DNA of 64,000 bases from assembly GCF_003992595.1 (NCBI RefSeq), contig NZ_RZNA01000040.1:331603-395602 (forward strand), in the 5' to 3' direction. The stretch comes from Flagellimonas oceanensis (GTDB taxonomy: Bacteria > Bacteroidota > Bacteroidia > Flavobacteriales > Flavobacteriaceae). Shown here in pieces: positions 4,764 to 63,951 of the stretch (position 1 is its first letter; the number at the start of each line of letters is the position of its first letter). The notes under the pieces were generated by a model. It searched no databases. It was not told the DNA's origin and saw only the letters and a program-made list of their open reading frames with translations. The position numbers were made by a program, and so were the translations under genes.

Positions 4764-5936
4764 TTAAGCTAGGCTTTTCATTCCGATATTGCTGGTCTCA
4801 ACAATTTCGTGAATATCCTCGTCCATGATTTCTTTTTTCACATCGGCGTACTTCAAGAAGTTTTCGTAAACCGTATCCAATTGAAGTTTTGTGAGTTCGT
4901 ACCCAACATTTTTGGCTCGGTAGGCCAAAGCGGCACGCCCACTTCGTGCAGTTAATACAATGGAGGATTCGCTTACCCCAACATCTTTTGGGTCTATGAT
5001 TTCATAGGTTTCACGACGCTTGATTACCCCATCTTGGTGAATTCCGGAACTATGGGCAAACGCATTGGAACCTACGATAGCTTTATTGGGCTGCACAGGC
5101 ATTCCCATTTTTTGAGAAACCATGGTACTGGTATCCCAAAGTAATTGGCTGTTGATGTTGGTATCCAAGTTTAAGTGCGGATGTTGTCTCATGATCATTA
5201 CCACTTCTTCCAAAGAAGTGTTTCCAGCTCGTTCGCCGATACCGTTGATGGTACATTCGATTTGTCGAGCTCCATTGGCAACACCTGCGATGGAATTGGC
5301 AGTGGCCAAACCTAAATCATTATGGCAGTGACAGGATAGGATAGCTTTATCGATGCCTTTTACATTTTCTTTCAAGTATTTCATCTTGGCACCGTACTCT
5401 TCGGGCAAGCAATAGCCTGTTGTATCTGGAATGTTCAGCACTGTTGCTCCGACTTTGATTACCTCTTCACAGATTCGAGCTAAAAATTCATTGTCGGTAC
5501 GGCCTGCATCCTCAGCATAGAATTCCACATCTTCCACAAAGGTTTTGGCGTAGGCCACAGCTGCTACGGCACGCTCAATAATCTTATCTTGGGTAGAATT
5601 GAATTTGTATTTGATATGCGATTCGGAAGTTCCGATTCCCGTATGTATTCGTGGTTTTTTGGCATCCTTAATGGCTTCTGCGGCCACTTCAATGTCTTTC
5701 TTCACGGCGCGGGTCAATCCACAGACCGTTGCATTTTTGACCAATTTGGCGATTTCGTTTACGGACTTAAAATCACCGGGGCTAGATATGGGGAACCCTG
5801 CCTCGATTACATCAACTCCCAATTGATCTAATCGTTCGGCAATGATTAATTTTTGTTCGGTATCCAGTTTGCAACCAGGTACCTGTTCTCCATCTCTTAG
5901 TGTTGTGTCAAAAATTTCTACCTTATCTTTACCCAT
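4764..5936 (-). CDS. leuA: 2-isopropylmalate synthase
   Basis: [37 protein letters not shown]; adjacent to leuB. Confidence 0.93.
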
Positions 5937-6083
5937 TATTTCAACCTGTTTTTTTCTATGACTTACGAAAATAGGGAAGGTAGGCTGAAGAGGAAAAGCG
6001 ACTCTGGTAACGTTACAACGTTTAATTGCTTTTTGATAGAACTAAATAACTGAAAAACAATTGTTTAAACAATATTTTTTACG

Positions 6084-7628
6084 ATGACAAATGCCCATAA
6101 GGATGCTTTGTTTGTACTGGTAAAATCGCTGTCCAAGTCCGAAAAACGTCAATTTAAGCTCTATGTTGGTCGTTTGGGGGTCAATACGGATGCCAAGTTT
6201 TTGGCACTTTTCAACCTCTTGGATAAGATGCGGAAGTACGATGAGAAGCAGATTTTGGATAGCGGCATCGTCAAAAAATCCCAGCTTTCCAACCTCAAGG
6301 CGCACTTGTACAAGCAGATTTTGGTAAGTCTCAGGCTGAACCCAGTGAATCAAAATGTACGTATTCAAATCAGGGAGCAACTCGATTTTGCCACCATTCT
6401 CTATCAAAAAGGGCTGTATAAGCAAAGCTTGAAGATTTTGGAGAAAGCCAAAAGTTTCGCGATAGAGAACGAGGAAAAGAACGTGGCCTACGAAATCGTT
6501 GAGTTGGAGAAGGTTATCGAAACCCAGTATATTACCCGAAGTATACCTGATAGGGCTGATGAACTTGCCGTTGAGGCCAAGGAACTTTCTGCGCAAAATG
6601 TGATGACAAGCAAGCTTTCCAATCTTTCGTTACAGTTGTATGGAATGATGTTGAAAGTTGGGTATGTGCGCAGTGATGAGGATTTGCAAAAAGTAAAAAA
6701 CTACTTTGAAGAACATCTGCCAAAATACGATATTGAAAAGTTGGGTTTCCGTGAAAAATTATGGCTCTACAAAGCGCATTTATGGTATAGTCTTTTGATT
6801 CAGGACTTTTTGTCAGCCTACAAATACGCCAGTAAATGGGTGGACCTGTTTTATGAGAACGACCATATGATTCCACTGAATCCCGTGTTCTTTTTAAAAG
6901 GTAACCACTATTTGTTGGAGTCACTTTTCTTTGTGAAATATGCCTCCCAGTTCAGGGAAACTTTGGAAAAGTTGGAAGAGCAGGTAAAGGATTCAAAGTT
7001 CCCTAAAAATGATAACATCAGTTCGCTAGCCTTTTTGTACATCAACACCAACAAGCTGAATCTTCATTTTCTGGAGGGCACTTTTGACAAAGGAATTTAT
7101 TTGGTCAACATCATCGAGTATGGCATCAAAAAACATCGACAGCAGATTGATGAACACCACATTATGCTGCTCTATTACAAAATCGCTTGTTTGTATTTTG
7201 GAAATGGGGACAACAAAAACTGTATTGCCTACCTGAAGAAAATCATTTCCAACAAAAAATTGAAGATGCGTGAAGATTTGATGTGTTTTGCGAGGGTGTT
7301 AAGCCTTGTTGCGCATTACGAAGCAGGAATGGATTATCATTTGGAAGTGCAGCTTAAAAGCACCTATAAGTTCTTGTTGAAAATGAACGATTTACATGAG
7401 GTGCAAAAGGAAATGATCAAGTTCCTACGGAATCTTGGGGACATCTACCCGACGGATCTAAAAGGTGAGTTCCAGAAATTGTACAACGAGCTAAAAAAGT
7501 ACGAAAACCACCCCTACGAAAAACGGGCATTTTTGTATTTGGATATCCTCTCGTGGTTGGAAAGTCATCTGCAGAACAAACCTGTTTCCGAGATTATTAG
7601 GGAAAAAGCCTTGGCACTTACTCGCTAA
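6084..7628 (+). CDS. Hypothetical protein, helical repeat-like
   Basis: Long ORF, 514 aa, no recognised motif. Confidence 0.75.
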   Translation: MTNAHKDALFVLVKSLSKSEKRQFKLYVGRLGVNTDAKFLALFNLLDKMRKYDEKQILDSGIVKKSQLSNLKAHLYKQILVSLRLNPVNQNVRIQIREQLDFATILYQKGLYKQSLKILEKAKSFAIENEEKNVAYEIVELEKVIETQYITRSIPDRADELAVEAKELSAQNVMTSKLSNLSLQLYGMMLKVGYVRSDEDLQKVKNYFEEHLPKYDIEKLGFREKLWLYKAHLWYSLLIQDFLSAYKYASKWVDLFYENDHMIPLNPVFFLKGNHYLLESLFFVKYASQFRETLEKLEEQVKDSKFPKNDNISSLAFLYINTNKLNLHFLEGTFDKGIYLVNIIEYGIKKHRQQIDEHHIMLLYYKIACLYFGNGDNKNCIAYLKKIISNKKLKMREDLMCFARVLSLVAHYEAGMDYHLEVQLKSTYKFLLKMNDLHEVQKEMIKFLRNLGDIYPTDLKGEFQKLYNELKKYENHPYEKRAFLYLDILSWLESHLQNKPVSEIIREKALALTR

Positions 7629-57556: not shown

Positions 57557-57937
57557 TCTTTAATTCCAATTAAATAATATTTTCAAAAATCTCACTAAAA
57601 ATGGGCTTTTCCGAAGGAAAATGAATCAATAGCATCGCGCCAGCGTGCTATCCTCTTGCTTTACATTTTTCTTTTGCGAAGCAAAACAAAAAAGAAAGCG
57701 ATCAAGTTTGGAATCCAAATCATCCATTCGATGGAATTATTCAACCTCTTACGGAATTCCACATTTTCTAGTTTATTGAAAATTCTTACATTTAGCTCAA
57801 TCCCCTATAATTATAGTGAGCCAAGTAAAACTATGCTTTATTTAAAGCTTGGGCATAGCCAACTAAATTGGTAGTAGATGCCGATAAAGTAGTATATATA
57901 ATCAAGGTGTGTTTAATTCTGAGGAACATTCTGCTAA

Positions 57938-59230
57938 ATGAAAATTGGAAGAAATGATATATGTCCATGTGGAAGTGGATTGAAATACAAAAAATGCTGT
58001 ATGAAAAAGGATTCAACATTAGCTATTCCCAAAAATGATTTCTCGGTAGATGAAATCATATCATTTCTAGAGATTGGATTAAAAAACATTAATTCCGTTA
58101 ACAGTAAGGTTTCGAATATTTCTGTTAAGCAGATTAAACTACTTAATGGAAAAACATTGGAATGTCAATTTTATGCAGAATCGGAGAATTCAATTGATCT
58201 TAAGGCTGAGATTAGTTCTGTAATGGGAGCTCTTCATGGCTTTTTTAAGGATGATTCATTCAGGAATATTCAACTTGATTATTATGCAGTTAGAGCATAT
58301 AATAGCTCAGATATTGAAATAATGCATGCTATTTCATCAACGGAATCTGCAGCTATGATTGGGAATGGAAAAGCAATTGATTGGATGAAATCTACAATAT
58401 TTCAAGAAAATACAAAAGATTACAGATTGGCAATTGCTAAACGACAAATTTCTGATATCGAAAATGCACTAAGGAAAGTTATTGTAAATAGGTTGTCCTC
58501 AAAGCACGGTTCTGACTGGTTTAGGTTATCATTGGGTAAGAAGCTCTTTGAAATTATCAAAGGAACTTATAAAAATCAATTTGGAGAAGAAATTGAAGAT
58601 GGTAAAGTTCTGATAGAGTATACATTTGTTCTACAGTTAAAGAAAATAATTTGCACCAATTGGAAAGACTTTTCTGACTTATTTGCAAATAAGATTGAGT
58701 TTGAAAACCTTATTAGTGAGTTAAACGAAATTAGAAGAGAAGAGGCTCACAATCGAGATGTTTCTGTGATCCATTTGGATAGGCTTAAAATAATCTATGA
58801 GTTTATGCTTCTTGGAATAACTGAAAAATATTCAGGAATAATTCCAAATTACTTAATAGATAACTGGAAAATCCAATTAAAAGAAATTATGCTTCCAAAA
58901 CCAGATTTACCATATTCTGATTCGGACGTGCTTAATGAAACAAATCAGCAATTGAAGCTTATAAAATCGCTAACAAATCTTCAATGTTTGATAAATCATA
59001 TAAAAAATCGGGAAGATAAAGTAAAAAGTGTAGTTGTTCCTGTGCAAAAGAAAAAAACGCATGATGAACTTTTGACGATTCTTTTAAATTATAGAATACT
59101 ACATGAAGAATTACTGGAAAGTGGAAAAAAAGGAGTTTTATCGATTGTGGAGAATAAACAAAAAGAGATAGATGAGTATAGTAAAAAACTGCATGAATTC
59201 TCGAAAAGATATGTATTTGAAGAGTCCTGA
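57938..59230 (+). CDS. SEC-C zinc-motif protein with Swt1/HEPN-like domain
   Basis: N-terminal [16 protein letters not shown]; Rx4H motif in [13 protein letters not shown]. Confidence 0.75.
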
Positions 59231-59384
59231 GAATGAATTAAACATGACAAAAATATAGGTCATTTAGCGGATGGTGTTAAGTTTGAGTATGTTAACATAT
59301 AATAAAATATATAGTGGTTAGACAAGTTGACGTTTCAAAATGCCAAACGCCCCATAATCAAACCGTTGGCGCTAATATGTATTT

Positions 59385-60341
59385 ATGAGCAACACAAGAT
59401 CAGAACAAGAAGTAATAGGACTAAGAGTTGTTGGTCAGTTTGTCCGTGAAAAATGGAAATGTAGATTTCAAGAACTTGATGCAAGAAATGATGACGGTAT
59501 TGATGGAATAGTTTTTTTTGCGAAGAACGGAGAAGCAAGTGGTGAAACGGCCTTTGTTCAAGTAAAATGCGGGCCTAGCTATAAAGTTGATCAAAAGAAA
59601 AATCAAAATAGCTTCAAGTTAAGACTAGGCATTGATTATATTGAAACACATAGGCCTAGATGGCATAGATACCCTGGACCAGTGATTTTAATTTATGTTG
59701 ATTCTTCAACTAATGACATTCTTCCGCACGCTTGGTGGGCTGACCTTAAACAAAACGACACATACGATCTTTACTACAAGTCCTATTTAACCATAGATAA
59801 GTTATCTCGATTTGGGGAGCATTCTAAAGGTTTTATTAAAAACCTTTGCACTCATCACCTTGATCACGATTTGGAGAGTGTAGAGCTTAAACCAAAAGAT
59901 TTTGAATATATCGATTTAACCCAACCACTCAAGAAAACTGCATGGAAAGAATATAAAAATATAGCAGGCGTTTATAACAACCCCACATTAGGAAAAATAA
60001 CTGTGAATAGAGTAGGGTGGAAGCATATTACGAGAAAAGGAAGAAAGCCGCTTCATATACATCAATCCTTCGAACTCTTAGGTGCTTTGAAATCGATACT
60101 TACTTCTACGAAACGATATGAATACACTAAATTATTAGAGAAATATGAGAAACATTCAAATACAATAATCATTGATAATATTAGCTTAAGGGCAAAAGTT
60201 ACATTTCCCCACAGATATCAAGGAGTAGTTGTGGTAATGCTAAAAAGGAAAAGGCTTTTCAATAAAAATGGAAAAGCAAATACAGCGAAAATTTGGTTTT
60301 ATTCAATTTTTGAATCAAGAAGGGGGAAAGGGGTTTTTTAA
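59385..60341 (+). CDS. DUF4365-like nuclease-fold protein
   Basis: SEQEVIGLRVVGQFVREKWKCRFQELDARNDDGIDG...FVQVKCG: D...QxK arrangement of the PD-(D/E)xK superfamily. Confidence 0.72.
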   Translation: MSNTRSEQEVIGLRVVGQFVREKWKCRFQELDARNDDGIDGIVFFAKNGEASGETAFVQVKCGPSYKVDQKKNQNSFKLRLGIDYIETHRPRWHRYPGPVILIYVDSSTNDILPHAWWADLKQNDTYDLYYKSYLTIDKLSRFGEHSKGFIKNLCTHHLDHDLESVELKPKDFEYIDLTQPLKKTAWKEYKNIAGVYNNPTLGKITVNRVGWKHITRKGRKPLHIHQSFELLGALKSILTSTKRYEYTKLLEKYEKHSNTIIIDNISLRAKVTFPHRYQGVVVVMLKRKRLFNKNGKANTAKIWFYSIFESRRGKGVF

Positions 60342-60472
60342 TAAAAAAGGCCACTAAATGCTTCTAAGAACTAAAACGTCTTTTCGGAAGAATTACGCAA
60401 AGTGACCTAAAAAGGTCTTTACTCTTCTTGTATGCATCAGTGGCCCGGCCAACGACAAAGATAAAAAAATAC

Positions 60473-60611
60473 TAGCGCCAACAAATACTATACGTAATGG
60501 GGGTCTTGGTACTAAAATGAAATAAAAGTAACATCAACAAACATTTAGGTGAGTCAACTGTAAAGTGCTTTTTAATCTAGCACTACGTATAGCCAAACCG
60601 TTGTAGTGAAT
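60473..60611. repeat. attC-like imperfect palindrome between accessory genes
   Basis: CTATACGTA (60488-60496) pairs with TACGTATAG (60584-60592); TAGCGCCAAC outer left arm; CAAACCGTTG at right. Confidence 0.5.
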
Positions 60612-60627
60612 TTGACAAAAGAACAAG

Positions 60628-61323
60628 ATGAGATTAAATAATAAAGAATTATTTGAATTGTTAAGCGAAAAAGGAATACATCATCTCTATCACGCTAACA
60701 CAGTTAGAACATCGAGGACTTTTATTGAACAAGGGGGATTATTGTCAAGAGGAGCTGTTGAATCAAAAGGATTAGAACAAACGCCACAATCTTCAGATGA
60801 AATTGACAAAATTTTTGAAGTATGGAATGATGTCTTTTTAGACACTGTTGATTTACACACCTATTTCAATCGTCAAAATTATTATGGCCCCGTTTTGTTC
60901 AAATTGACGACTGAATTTTTGAATGAACTTGATATAGAAATATGGGTAACTAAGGACAATCCCATAAATTGGAACCAAGAAATGACAACAGAGGAAAAAT
61001 ATTTTTCCTCTTTAGCTGAATTAAAGAAAAACTGGGATTCCTATGCTCGTCAAAGGAAAATGACTACGATTAAAAATAATACAGAGCCCATACTTTTGGA
61101 TTACGTTGAAGAAGTAATTTATGACAATCCAGGAGTTATGAACGAAGAAACAGGTGTTGTTTTCTTTAATCAAGGAATGGCTGACTTAAAAGAATCTTTA
61201 AAAGTTAATCCACCATTTAAAAATAAATTTAAGACAAGAAACTGTAGCGGATGTTTTTGCAGGAGTAATTATCTGTACCAACATACAATACCCGAATTGA
61301 ATAGACTTTTCTTATCAAATTAA
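60628..61323 (+). CDS. DarT/ADP-ribosyltransferase-like protein (distant)
   Basis: HLYHANTVRTSRTFIEQGGLLSRGAVE resembles ART-type 'LYH...GGLLSR' N-termini; C-terminal Cys-rich NCSGCFCRSNY. Confidence 0.45.
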   Translation: MRLNNKELFELLSEKGIHHLYHANTVRTSRTFIEQGGLLSRGAVESKGLEQTPQSSDEIDKIFEVWNDVFLDTVDLHTYFNRQNYYGPVLFKLTTEFLNELDIEIWVTKDNPINWNQEMTTEEKYFSSLAELKKNWDSYARQRKMTTIKNNTEPILLDYVEEVIYDNPGVMNEETGVVFFNQGMADLKESLKVNPPFKNKFKTRNCSGCFCRSNYLYQHTIPELNRLFLSN

Positions 61324-61328
61324 AAATT

Positions 61329-61544
61329 ATGGAAAAAATTAATGTAGAATGCAAAAATTGTCATTCAGAATCGGAAATCCGAGAGGAAAAATTGATGTTT
61401 TCAGAAATAAAAATAATGGAAGAAGCCTACTGTCCAGAATGTGAGGAAAAAATTTATGAGGGAGAAACAGATGGATGGTTTCACGTTCAAAAATTAGGAA
61501 AAAAAGATAGAGCTGACGAGGAATGTGTTTATCCAATGCCTTAA
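61329..61544 (+). CDS. Small zinc-ribbon-like protein
   Basis: CKNC...CPEC motif. Confidence 0.6.
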   Translation: MEKINVECKNCHSESEIREEKLMFSEIKIMEEAYCPECEEKIYEGETDGWFHVQKLGKKDRADEECVYPMP

Positions 61545-61699
61545 AAAAAATGAACTAAAACAAAGATGGCTGTAATTCATTGTAGTTTTTTGCCACGCCA
61601 AAATAAAAGCATAAATCAGACTGCTGGATTTCGAGGCAATAATCGTGCGGATAATTCCACAACGAAGCCACAGAGACCATTGCACATAATCCTTAAAAA

Positions 61700-62413
61700 A
61701 TGAACGCTAATTCAAAAATCAAATCTGAAGACAGATGCTATTGGTGCGGAAAACAGGCAGTAGGATATGATCACGTTCCACCTCAAAATTTATTTCCTAA
61801 AGGACATCGAAATGAATTAATAACCGTTACAGCTTGTAAAGAGCATAATCAAGAACTATCAAAAATTGATGAAAGAATGAGAATAAATTTAATAATGCTT
61901 TCTCATAAATCAAATGCTGCTCGAAAACTCTTTAATGAGAAAATTTTAAAAGGAATTCAGAGAAAAGAAAGTAAGGGATTAGGAATAGATATTGCGAATA
62001 ATATATTTGAAAAGCCAGAAGGAGGTGGCTATATTCGTGTGAATTCAAAACATTTGCACATCTATTTTGAAAAAATAATCCGTGGACTTTATTTCAACAT
62101 TTACAGAAAACATTTTCAAGGTAGCACACATCATTTTTGGAATGGATTTAACGATTTAAGCTTATCCGCAAATACACATTTTTATTATTTCGAAATTGAA
62201 AAAAAGTACTCTGAAAACTGGATTAACGGAAAATGCAAGAACAAAGAGGTTTTTGATTACAAATATTATTACTGCAATATTGAAAAGCAATTCTTTGTGA
62301 TTATGGACTTTTACGAAACCCATAAAGTTATTGGAATTAGTATTCCAGAAGGAAGGGATATAGAAGATTATGGATTGGACATTGAAAAACATTTGAATAT
62401 AAAATTGCAGTAA
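61700..62413 (+). CDS. HNH-like zinc-binding protein
   Basis: CYWCGKQAVGYDHVPPQNLFPKGHRNELITVTACKEHN. Confidence 0.65.
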   Translation: MNANSKIKSEDRCYWCGKQAVGYDHVPPQNLFPKGHRNELITVTACKEHNQELSKIDERMRINLIMLSHKSNAARKLFNEKILKGIQRKESKGLGIDIANNIFEKPEGGGYIRVNSKHLHIYFEKIIRGLYFNIYRKHFQGSTHHFWNGFNDLSLSANTHFYYFEIEKKYSENWINGKCKNKEVFDYKYYYCNIEKQFFVIMDFYETHKVIGISIPEGRDIEDYGLDIEKHLNIKLQ

Positions 62414-62419
62414 GGTACA

Positions 62420-62785
62420 ATGAGCAAAATGTTAAATAAATGGTATTTAAGTATGTTCATCATTCCAATTGTTCTTACTTATCTTACCACCTATATCAAG
62501 CTACCAGACATATTTAGTAATTGGGAATATTCAATTATTGCCTCACTGACCATCTTAAGTGGTATTTTATTTTACGAGATTATAACTCTTAAAAGAGAAT
62601 TAACAAGATTAAGTGAAAAACCAAAAAAATCCGATAAAAAAATAGTTCGTGAATTATTGGAAACACTGAATATTGACAAATTTCACGAAGATATTGTAAG
62701 ACAAGATGCTTGGAATGGATATCATCGAGAGGATATTTATAGAATAATTGAGTTTCAAGAAAAAGCAAAACTCATCGGATTGTAG
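62420..62785 (+). CDS. Small membrane protein, 3' end interrupted by IS3 element
   Basis: Two TM segments; stop codon TAG (62783-62785) lies inside the IS left inverted repeat. Confidence 0.6.
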   Translation: MSKMLNKWYLSMFIIPIVLTYLTTYIKLPDIFSNWEYSIIASLTILSGILFYEIITLKRELTRLSEKPKKSDKKIVRELLETLNIDKFHEDIVRQDAWNGYHREDIYRIIEFQEKAKLIGL

Positions 62786-62833
62786 ATACCCCAAAAATTA
62801 GGGCAGTAAGTTTAATCATTAAATTTACTGAAT

Positions 62834-63109
62834 ATGACACGAAGAAAGTTTACCCCGAAGTTCAAGACCAAGGTGGTATTGGAAGCCTTGAAAGAGCGGC
62901 ATAGCCTTGCCGAACTTGCCCAGAAGTACGAGATACACCCGACCCAGATCAGCGCATGGAAGCGCGATTTCCTCGATGGGGCCGAGCAGGTGTTCGAATC
63001 GGGCAAGAAGGATGCCCGCAGCGAGACCGAAAGGGAGAAGGACAAACTTCTAAAGGCCATAGGCCAGTTGAAGGTCGAGAACGATTTTTTAAAGGACGCC
63101 TTGCGCTGA
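62834..63109 (+). CDS. IS3-family transposase OrfA (HTH)
   Basis: MTRRKFTPKFKTKVVLEALKERHSLAELAQKYEIHPTQISAWK. Confidence 0.93.
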   Translation: MTRRKFTPKFKTKVVLEALKERHSLAELAQKYEIHPTQISAWKRDFLDGAEQVFESGKKDARSETEREKDKLLKAIGQLKVENDFLKDALR

Positions 63110-63951
63110 GACCACTCTCCGAACGCAGAAAAATGATACGCAAGGGTCATTCCAAGATGAGCATTGTAAAACAATGCGAAACATTGTCGGTCCATCGTTC
63201 CGGGCTGTACTATAAGCCCAGGGGCGAGACCGAACTGAACCTGAAGCTCATGCGGGAGATGGACGAACATTATCTCCACCACCCTTTCAAAGGGGCCAAG
63301 CGGATGCACATCTGGCTGACCAAAGACAAAGGCTATAAAGTGAGCAGGAACCGGATCGAACGGCTCTATTACAAGGTAATGGGGCTTAGGGCGGTACTTC
63401 CGGGAAAGCACACCTCCCGAAGGTGCAAGGACCACAAAACGTATCCCTACCTGCTACGCAACCTGACAGTTGACAGGCCCAATCAGGTATGGGCAACCGA
63501 CATCACCTATATCCCCATGCAACAGGGATATCTCTACCTGGTGGCCATCATCGACCTGCACAGCCGCTATGTCCTGAACTGGAGCGTGTCCAATTCCATG
63601 GATGCCCAATGGTGCAGGGAAACATTGGAAGAGGCCATAGGTGAGCACGGGACACCTGAGATCCTCAATACGGACCAGGGGAGCCAGTTCACCGCCGAGG
63701 AGTTCGCCAATTATGTTTTGGGCCAGGGAATACGCCTGAGCATGGACGGTAAGGGAAGGGCCACGGACAATGCCTTTATCGAAAGGCTATGGAGGAATGT
63801 AAAATACGAGAAGATATACCTGAACCCTCCAAGGGACGGTATGGACCTTTATCTGTTATTGGCAGAGTACTTTGATTATTACAACCATGAAAGAAGACAC
63901 CAGTCCATCGACTATGAAAGACCTATCGATCTATTTAAGAGAGCGGCTTGA
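63086..63951 (+). CDS. IS3-family transposase OrfB (DDE integrase core), made by -1 frameshift
   Basis: ATDITYIPM, LNTDQGSQFTAEEFA, FIERLWRNVKYE catalytic D, D, E; -1 frame relative to OrfA. Confidence 0.92.

Follow-up and report, generated by a model that had tools for sequence, protein, structure and literature searches.

The stretch of Flagellimonas oceanensis DNA analyzed here spans 64,000 nucleotides, hereafter the window, and contains a gene for a DUF4365 protein flanked by repeated and inverted motifs, which raises the question of whether this gene and its neighbors are mobile cassettes and, if so, of which system. The first-pass annotation had suggested a divergent or undescribed cassette system in Bacteroidota, and every motif and coordinate that it gave proved right. 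The 10-mer CAAACCGTTG occurs at 59359-59368 and 60594-60603, the sequence GTTGGCGCTA (59365) at the start of the DUF4365 unit returns as its exact reverse complement TAGCGCCAAC at 60473-60482, both being unique in the window, and an inner inverted repeat, CTATACGTA/TACGTATAG, is located after the gene at 60488-60496 and 60584-60592. The proposal that CAAACCGTTG marks the boundary did not hold beyond its position: this 10-mer was found 20 times in the genome compared with 19 times for the reversed control, and was rejected as the family signature, which is instead the whole attC-like hairpin of about 123 nucleotides. Furthermore, the folding of the single window site was no better than that of shuffled sequences, for which reason covariation in alignments was used and significance was sought by comparison. 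The chance-level count and the folding result both speak for an ordinary intergenic repeat, or for inverted repeats arisen by chance, with no cassette function.

A scan for the arrangement CAAC-spacer-L''...L'-spacer-GTTG recovered the window site along with strikingly similar 123-nucleotide elements in congeners, several of which adjoin a gene for a tyrosine recombinase. Locus L057 was found to represent a complete array, in which the recombinase is followed by successive cassettes that start with GTTNNNNNN...ATTT and end with the reverse complement of their own start, followed by the hairpin. A covariance model inferred from 28 sites, R1, whose training set included the window site at 60470 but not the other two in the window, had a consensus stem in which 10 of the 13 pairs showed compensatory changes. 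A second model, R2, was built from 30 sites in other genera only, and the covariation in its alignment was 0.392, versus 0.120±0.015 after shuffling. Since R2 matched the site downstream of the DUF4365 gene (46.6 bits, E 7e-9) as well as a second site in the window (E 2.6e-5), the nested arrangement in the window exceeds chance. No attC-like family was matched in an Rfam search of the array.

The R1 scan of the window identified three attC-like hairpin sites, all on the plus strand, and the region from 57911 to approximately 62790 is a run of cassettes on the same strand, here called A, B, C, and then D. The boundaries noted in the first-pass annotation are thus real, but the gene upstream, for a protein with SEC-C and HEPN_Swt1 domains (57938-59230; Pfam), had been overlooked as part of a further cassette. 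This cassette A (57911-59364) extends from its R' sequence GTTTAATTC at 57911 to its own attC-like site at 59234-59380, with the R' GTT at 59365 (R1 match at 59237-59380, 39.2 bits; the second of the R2 matches, at 59234-59380). Its ends, GTTTAATTC and GAATTAAAC (59235-59243), are exact reverse complements and each is present once in the window. Cassette B (59365-60599) contains the DUF4365 gene (59385-60341; Pfam E 9e-20), and its site at 60468-60615 consists of R'' at 60473-60482, L'' at 60488-60496, L' at 60584-60592, and the R' GTT at 60600. The R1 score of 83.5 bits for this site includes the advantage of belonging to the training set of that model, whereas R2 is independent of the genus. 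No homologs of the DUF4365 cassette were found in the 72 congeners or in the family, as expected of an accessory cassette. The genes of cassettes A and B showed weak matches to candidate defense models (PDC-M34B; Class I Ago-associated REase), and may be defense genes.

Cassette C (60600-61678) is located between two attC-like sites and contains a gene for a protein of 231 amino acids without an assigned function (60628-61323) and a small open reading frame downstream of it. Its own end, GAACTAAAAC, matches the start at only 7 of 10 positions, and the attC-like site at 61547-61694 (R1, 44.4 bits) is degenerate, with an R' that has decayed to ATT at 61679. The probable cassette D (61679-62790) follows this third site and contains genes for proteins of 237 amino acids (61700-62413), with a CxxC/HNH-like start, and 121 amino acids (62420-62785); it is not closed by an attC and is cut by an IS3-like element. 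A pair of IS3-like transposase genes occupies 62834-63951, at the end of the contig.

As stated in the first-pass annotation, no tyrosine recombinase was identified in the window, but the absence does not extend to the genome, as contig C32 encodes such an enzyme and has an attI-like site beside it. The window array, located at a contig end and on another contig than the integrase, is either a detached cluster or a part of the array of this integrase that was split by the assembly. It was also noted that the assembly of this genome breaks at cassette boundaries, at the ends of contigs C32, C33, C34, and C35 (L091, L125, and L127).

Across the family, the sites are approximately 80 to 210 nucleotides long and, as in attC, contain an R and an L box, which are nested inverted repeats and form a hairpin. 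The GTT/AAC is nearly invariant and the core consists of GTT plus about 7 variable nucleotides, rather than the GTTRRRY (R') and RYYYAAC (R'') of integrons; only 7 of the 92 cassettes examined fit GTTRRRY, which bears out the remark in the first-pass annotation that the 7-mers fall outside this consensus. Among the 145 sites in which the L stem was clear, the usual spacer length was 3 nucleotides on the R''-L'' side and 5 to 6 nucleotides on the L'-R' side, the latter being the longer in 137 sites. Beyond the L stem, pairing continued over 1x1 or 2x2 mismatches in 96 of the 145 sites, while a one-base bulge was observed in a single site. Given this spacer asymmetry and the mismatches in place of a conserved one-base bulge, nothing in the sites evidently corresponds to the extrahelical bases docked by the I2 helix of IntI; the sites have an asymmetric 3x6 loop in their stead.

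The suggestion that each cassette starts with a sequence complementary to its own end was confirmed on a broad sample. The 92 cassettes, which were taken from many genomes, had complementary runs between their own ends with a mean length of 5.61 bp, not counting GTT/AAC, compared with 1.08±0.13 bp when the ends were shuffled among cassettes (1.55 bp at most in 2000 shuffles) and 1.12 bp between the two sides of one chromosomal site. Such a relation would be expected of a site that the circular cassette itself forms. Genes with similar boundaries were found to be numerous, both in the genome of the window and in its relatives, and the same cassettes were observed in different contexts, outcomes that favor the first-pass annotation. 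A cassette of 735 bp was present in two copies in one array, 100% identical and with unrelated neighbors, and cassettes of 796 bp and 967 bp were shared between a congener and Algibacter onchidii with 97.5% and 91.5% identity. Beyond the GTT boundaries of the shared cassettes, the similarity dropped to about 60% to 65%, the exception being the attC portion of the left-hand neighbor, which is conserved. In the genome of the window, a 410-bp unit with cassette boundaries of the GTT type was identified at six contig ends in C32 to C35, 100% identical in sequence; in C32 it comes after the attI-like site and in C35 after an attC, and the cassettes to its right differ between C34 and C35. On a Chryseobacterium plasmid (NZ_CP041688; L247:8950-11200), a short GTTGGGAAAA... 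unit was observed by eye after both an attI-like site and an attC.

The own-end complementarity and the exchange of cassettes contradict the reading of the motifs as an ordinary or chance repeat, as do the independent R2 matches, the linkage to an attI-like site and an integrase, and the fact that whole cassettes are exchanged with limits at GTT; we regard this reading as practically eliminated.

R1 sites were identified in all 73 genomes of the genus, and in 148 of 396 genomes and 88 of 172 genera of Bacteroidota, whereas none was found in 37 genomes from other phyla. A tyrosine recombinase, which the first-pass annotation had proposed to seek near an array end, was present at the ends of arrays in two layouts. 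The long forms of about 355 to 400 amino acids have an extra N-terminal domain and are mostly co-directional with the cassettes, whereas the short forms of about 272 to 289 amino acids are divergent from the array. The N-terminal segment of the long form, about 70 amino acids, was predicted to fold as strand-strand-helix-strand-strand-helix (L128:10001-10240 and homologs), and had no credible match in Pfam; a HARP-like fold was considered for this domain and found to be unsupported. The structural model of the A. onchidii integrase (L128) had the integron integrase 2a3v as its best fold match, followed by XerA.

The distance from the DR to the HxLRH motif was 58 to 63 amino acids in these enzymes, versus 100 amino acids in every measurable canonical IntI, which were taken from other phyla and from other classes of Bacteroidota. 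The enzymes thus lack the insert of about 42 residues that bears the I2 helix in every canonical IntI measured, and we refer to them as insert-less integrases. According to the literature, the I2 helix is necessary for IntI activity and cassette capture, confers recombination of single-stranded DNA, and occurs in no other protein (PMC7790495). The insert-less integrases scored on the XerA and integron-integrase models, with the best-scoring family being XerA (NF040815); on TIGR02249 they fell below the cut-off, with a split match that skipped positions ~180-239. The attI-like boundary was located by predicting the start of the first cassette from its end, and was found 47 to 153 nucleotides past the stop codon of the integrase gene for 17 of the 19 co-directional loci, C32 in the genome of the window being among them (125 nucleotides), and beside all 8 divergent integrases tested.

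Of the 52 loci with an insert-less integrase, 35 had R1 sites, compared with 0 of 25 canonical IntI loci (Fisher 2e-9, a value that overstates independence as the loci are related). Contig ends account for some of the 17 insert-less loci without a site, while L092, L101, and L115 are unexplained. The distribution also bears on the proposal that a canonical I2-bearing IntI moves the cassettes in trans or in other hosts, and that the insert-less neighbor is incidental. Canonical IntI was identified in 107 of the 396 genomes of the phylum as defined in GTDB, in other classes (e.g., L233 and L234), and the exchange of cassettes between genera is compatible with such a source. However, it is nearly absent from the class of the window genome, with no strong match in the sampled family members and 0 of 60 relatives over the cut-off, and, besides the lack of R1 sites at its own loci, the attI-like sites were in most loci found beside the insert-less enzyme, which makes this proposal very unlikely. 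In family f38, which belongs to another class, an integrase was within reach of two R1 arrays, and both of these arrays adjoin an insert-less enzyme (L228 and L238); the other members of the family carry canonical IntI.

A second proposal is that the host XerC/XerD system moves the cassettes, as for the pdif modules. The integrases at the arrays resemble Xer enzymes, which are present in all genomes, and share with the XerA/Xer recombinases a domain layout without the IntI insert. They nevertheless differ from these by their cassette arrays and attI-like sites, and many of them by the extra N-terminal domain. Rather than the short dif-like double-strand core of the 28-bp modules, the boundaries are long covarying hairpins with own-end complementarity; moreover, the Xer loci examined (L121 to L123) contained none of the attC-like sites, and attI and the arrays adjoin a separate integrase. 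We therefore consider movement by the host Xer system to be highly improbable.

Based on these comparisons, the region very probably belongs to the cassette array of an integron-type system in Bacteroidota, in which an insert-less recombinase would act on attI-like and attC-like sites; weighing against this are the 17 insert-less integrase loci without an R1 site, the published view that IntI needs I2 for its activity, the lack of an integrase in the window, and the decay of its third site. The recombinase, devoid of the I2 helix, would act on the attI-like site beside its own gene and on the hairpins of about 80 to 210 nucleotides, one at each cassette end. In the circular cassette, the first ~10 nucleotides (GTT plus 7) would pair with the last ~10 nucleotides (7 plus AAC) and thereby rebuild the outer stem, which would enclose the asymmetric 3x6 loop along with two further stems, the L stem and a variable one. 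Recombination at GTT would then insert circular cassettes at attI or attC, and excise them. We infer from the sequence comparisons that cassettes recombine and that the insert-less recombinase catalyzes the exchange; the substrate is presumably folded single-stranded DNA, and the 3x6 loop may provide the choice of strand, in place of extrahelical bases.

In common with the IntI/attC integrons of class 1, the Vibrio superintegron, and Treponema, the system has a tyrosine recombinase, an adjacent attI, tandem cassettes of one or two genes, hairpins of the R''-L''-L'-R' type, a GTT crossover, and the logic of a cassette circle. It differs in the integrase, which groups apart from IntI, and in the core, the spacers of 3 and 6 nucleotides, and the bulge. 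By its anatomy and comparative behavior it appears to work like an integron, yet it falls outside the IntI/attC definition, and since it lacks the IntI domain, the attC core, and conserved extrahelical bases, its classification as an ordinary integron would not be appropriate. The integron-like logic and the divergent system proposed in the first-pass annotation are thus both supported by the comparative tests.

In the phylogeny, IntI formed one clade with 100% SH-aLRT support, and the support for a grouping of the insert-less enzymes was weak to moderate, with a value of 93 in a build that also included two MAG sequences from other phyla and of 65 in another. A clade of insert-less integrases and IntI was neither demonstrated nor rejected (AU p 0.35). 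We lean slightly towards an integron lineage of its own in Bacteroidota, with a Xer-like integrase without I2 that recombines folded attC by a different strand selection, for which the 3x6 loop and, in the long form, the extra N-terminal domain might be responsible. If such a lineage is real, either I2 was not needed for cassette capture on folded DNA to arise, or the gain of I2 came after the divergence of these enzymes. A widespread integron-like system without I2 opens the origin of integrons to direct testing. It was also noted that the integrases in two MAGs labeled Spirochaetota and Undinarchaeales (L145 and L154) were placed inside the Bacteroidota group and had no R1 sites, which may reflect transfer, divergent sites, or a binning error.

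Although common in Bacteroidota, the system has gone almost unrecorded in published surveys. Reviews list Bacteroidota among the integron phyla without detail (PMC8618304), and a single complete integron was recorded in Bacteroidetes proper in the IntegronFinder 2.0 survey (PMC9024848). The Bacteroidetes integrons known from that work (Salinibacter ruber M1, and earlier In0s) resemble the system in that integron parts occur in the phylum, whereas here more than a third of the sampled genomes of the phylum are concerned and the integrase is of another type. No description of an insert-less system in Bacteroidota was found in the searchable literature, which does not cover bioRxiv and most subscription papers. 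Compared with that one surveyed integron, the occurrence of sites throughout the genus and in half of the sampled genera of the phylum reveals a large hidden pool of cassettes.

Resistance genes also ride on the system. On a Flagellimonas marinaquae plasmid (NZ_CP092416; L249:5894-8816), the short-form integrase is identical to that of two congeners, and the first cassette contains erm(F), in antisense orientation to the array, and has ends that match by eye; R1 sites were found at 6603-6753 and 5894-6042 on this plasmid. In Acinetobacter, the tpnF-tet(X3)-hp-hp-ISCR2 segment has been described as an ISCR2 transposition unit, with no mention of integrons or attC (PMC7722449). The tpnF gene, which precedes tet(X3) in NZ_CP041297 (L245:5028-7150) and pHH1107 (L246) and had lacked an explanation, is a shortened integrase of the insert-less family. 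Between the two genes is an attI-like palindrome that ends at a GTT located 18 nucleotides before the ATG of tet(X3), and downstream of tet(X3) is a truncated attC of the R1-type family, with an alignment score of 56 versus a maximum of 37 for shuffled sequences. The shortened integrase, the attI-like site, and the truncated attC suggest that tet(X3) probably entered as the first cassette of the tpnF integrase; it is considered no more than probable because the start and end boxes match by eye at only 7 of 10 positions.
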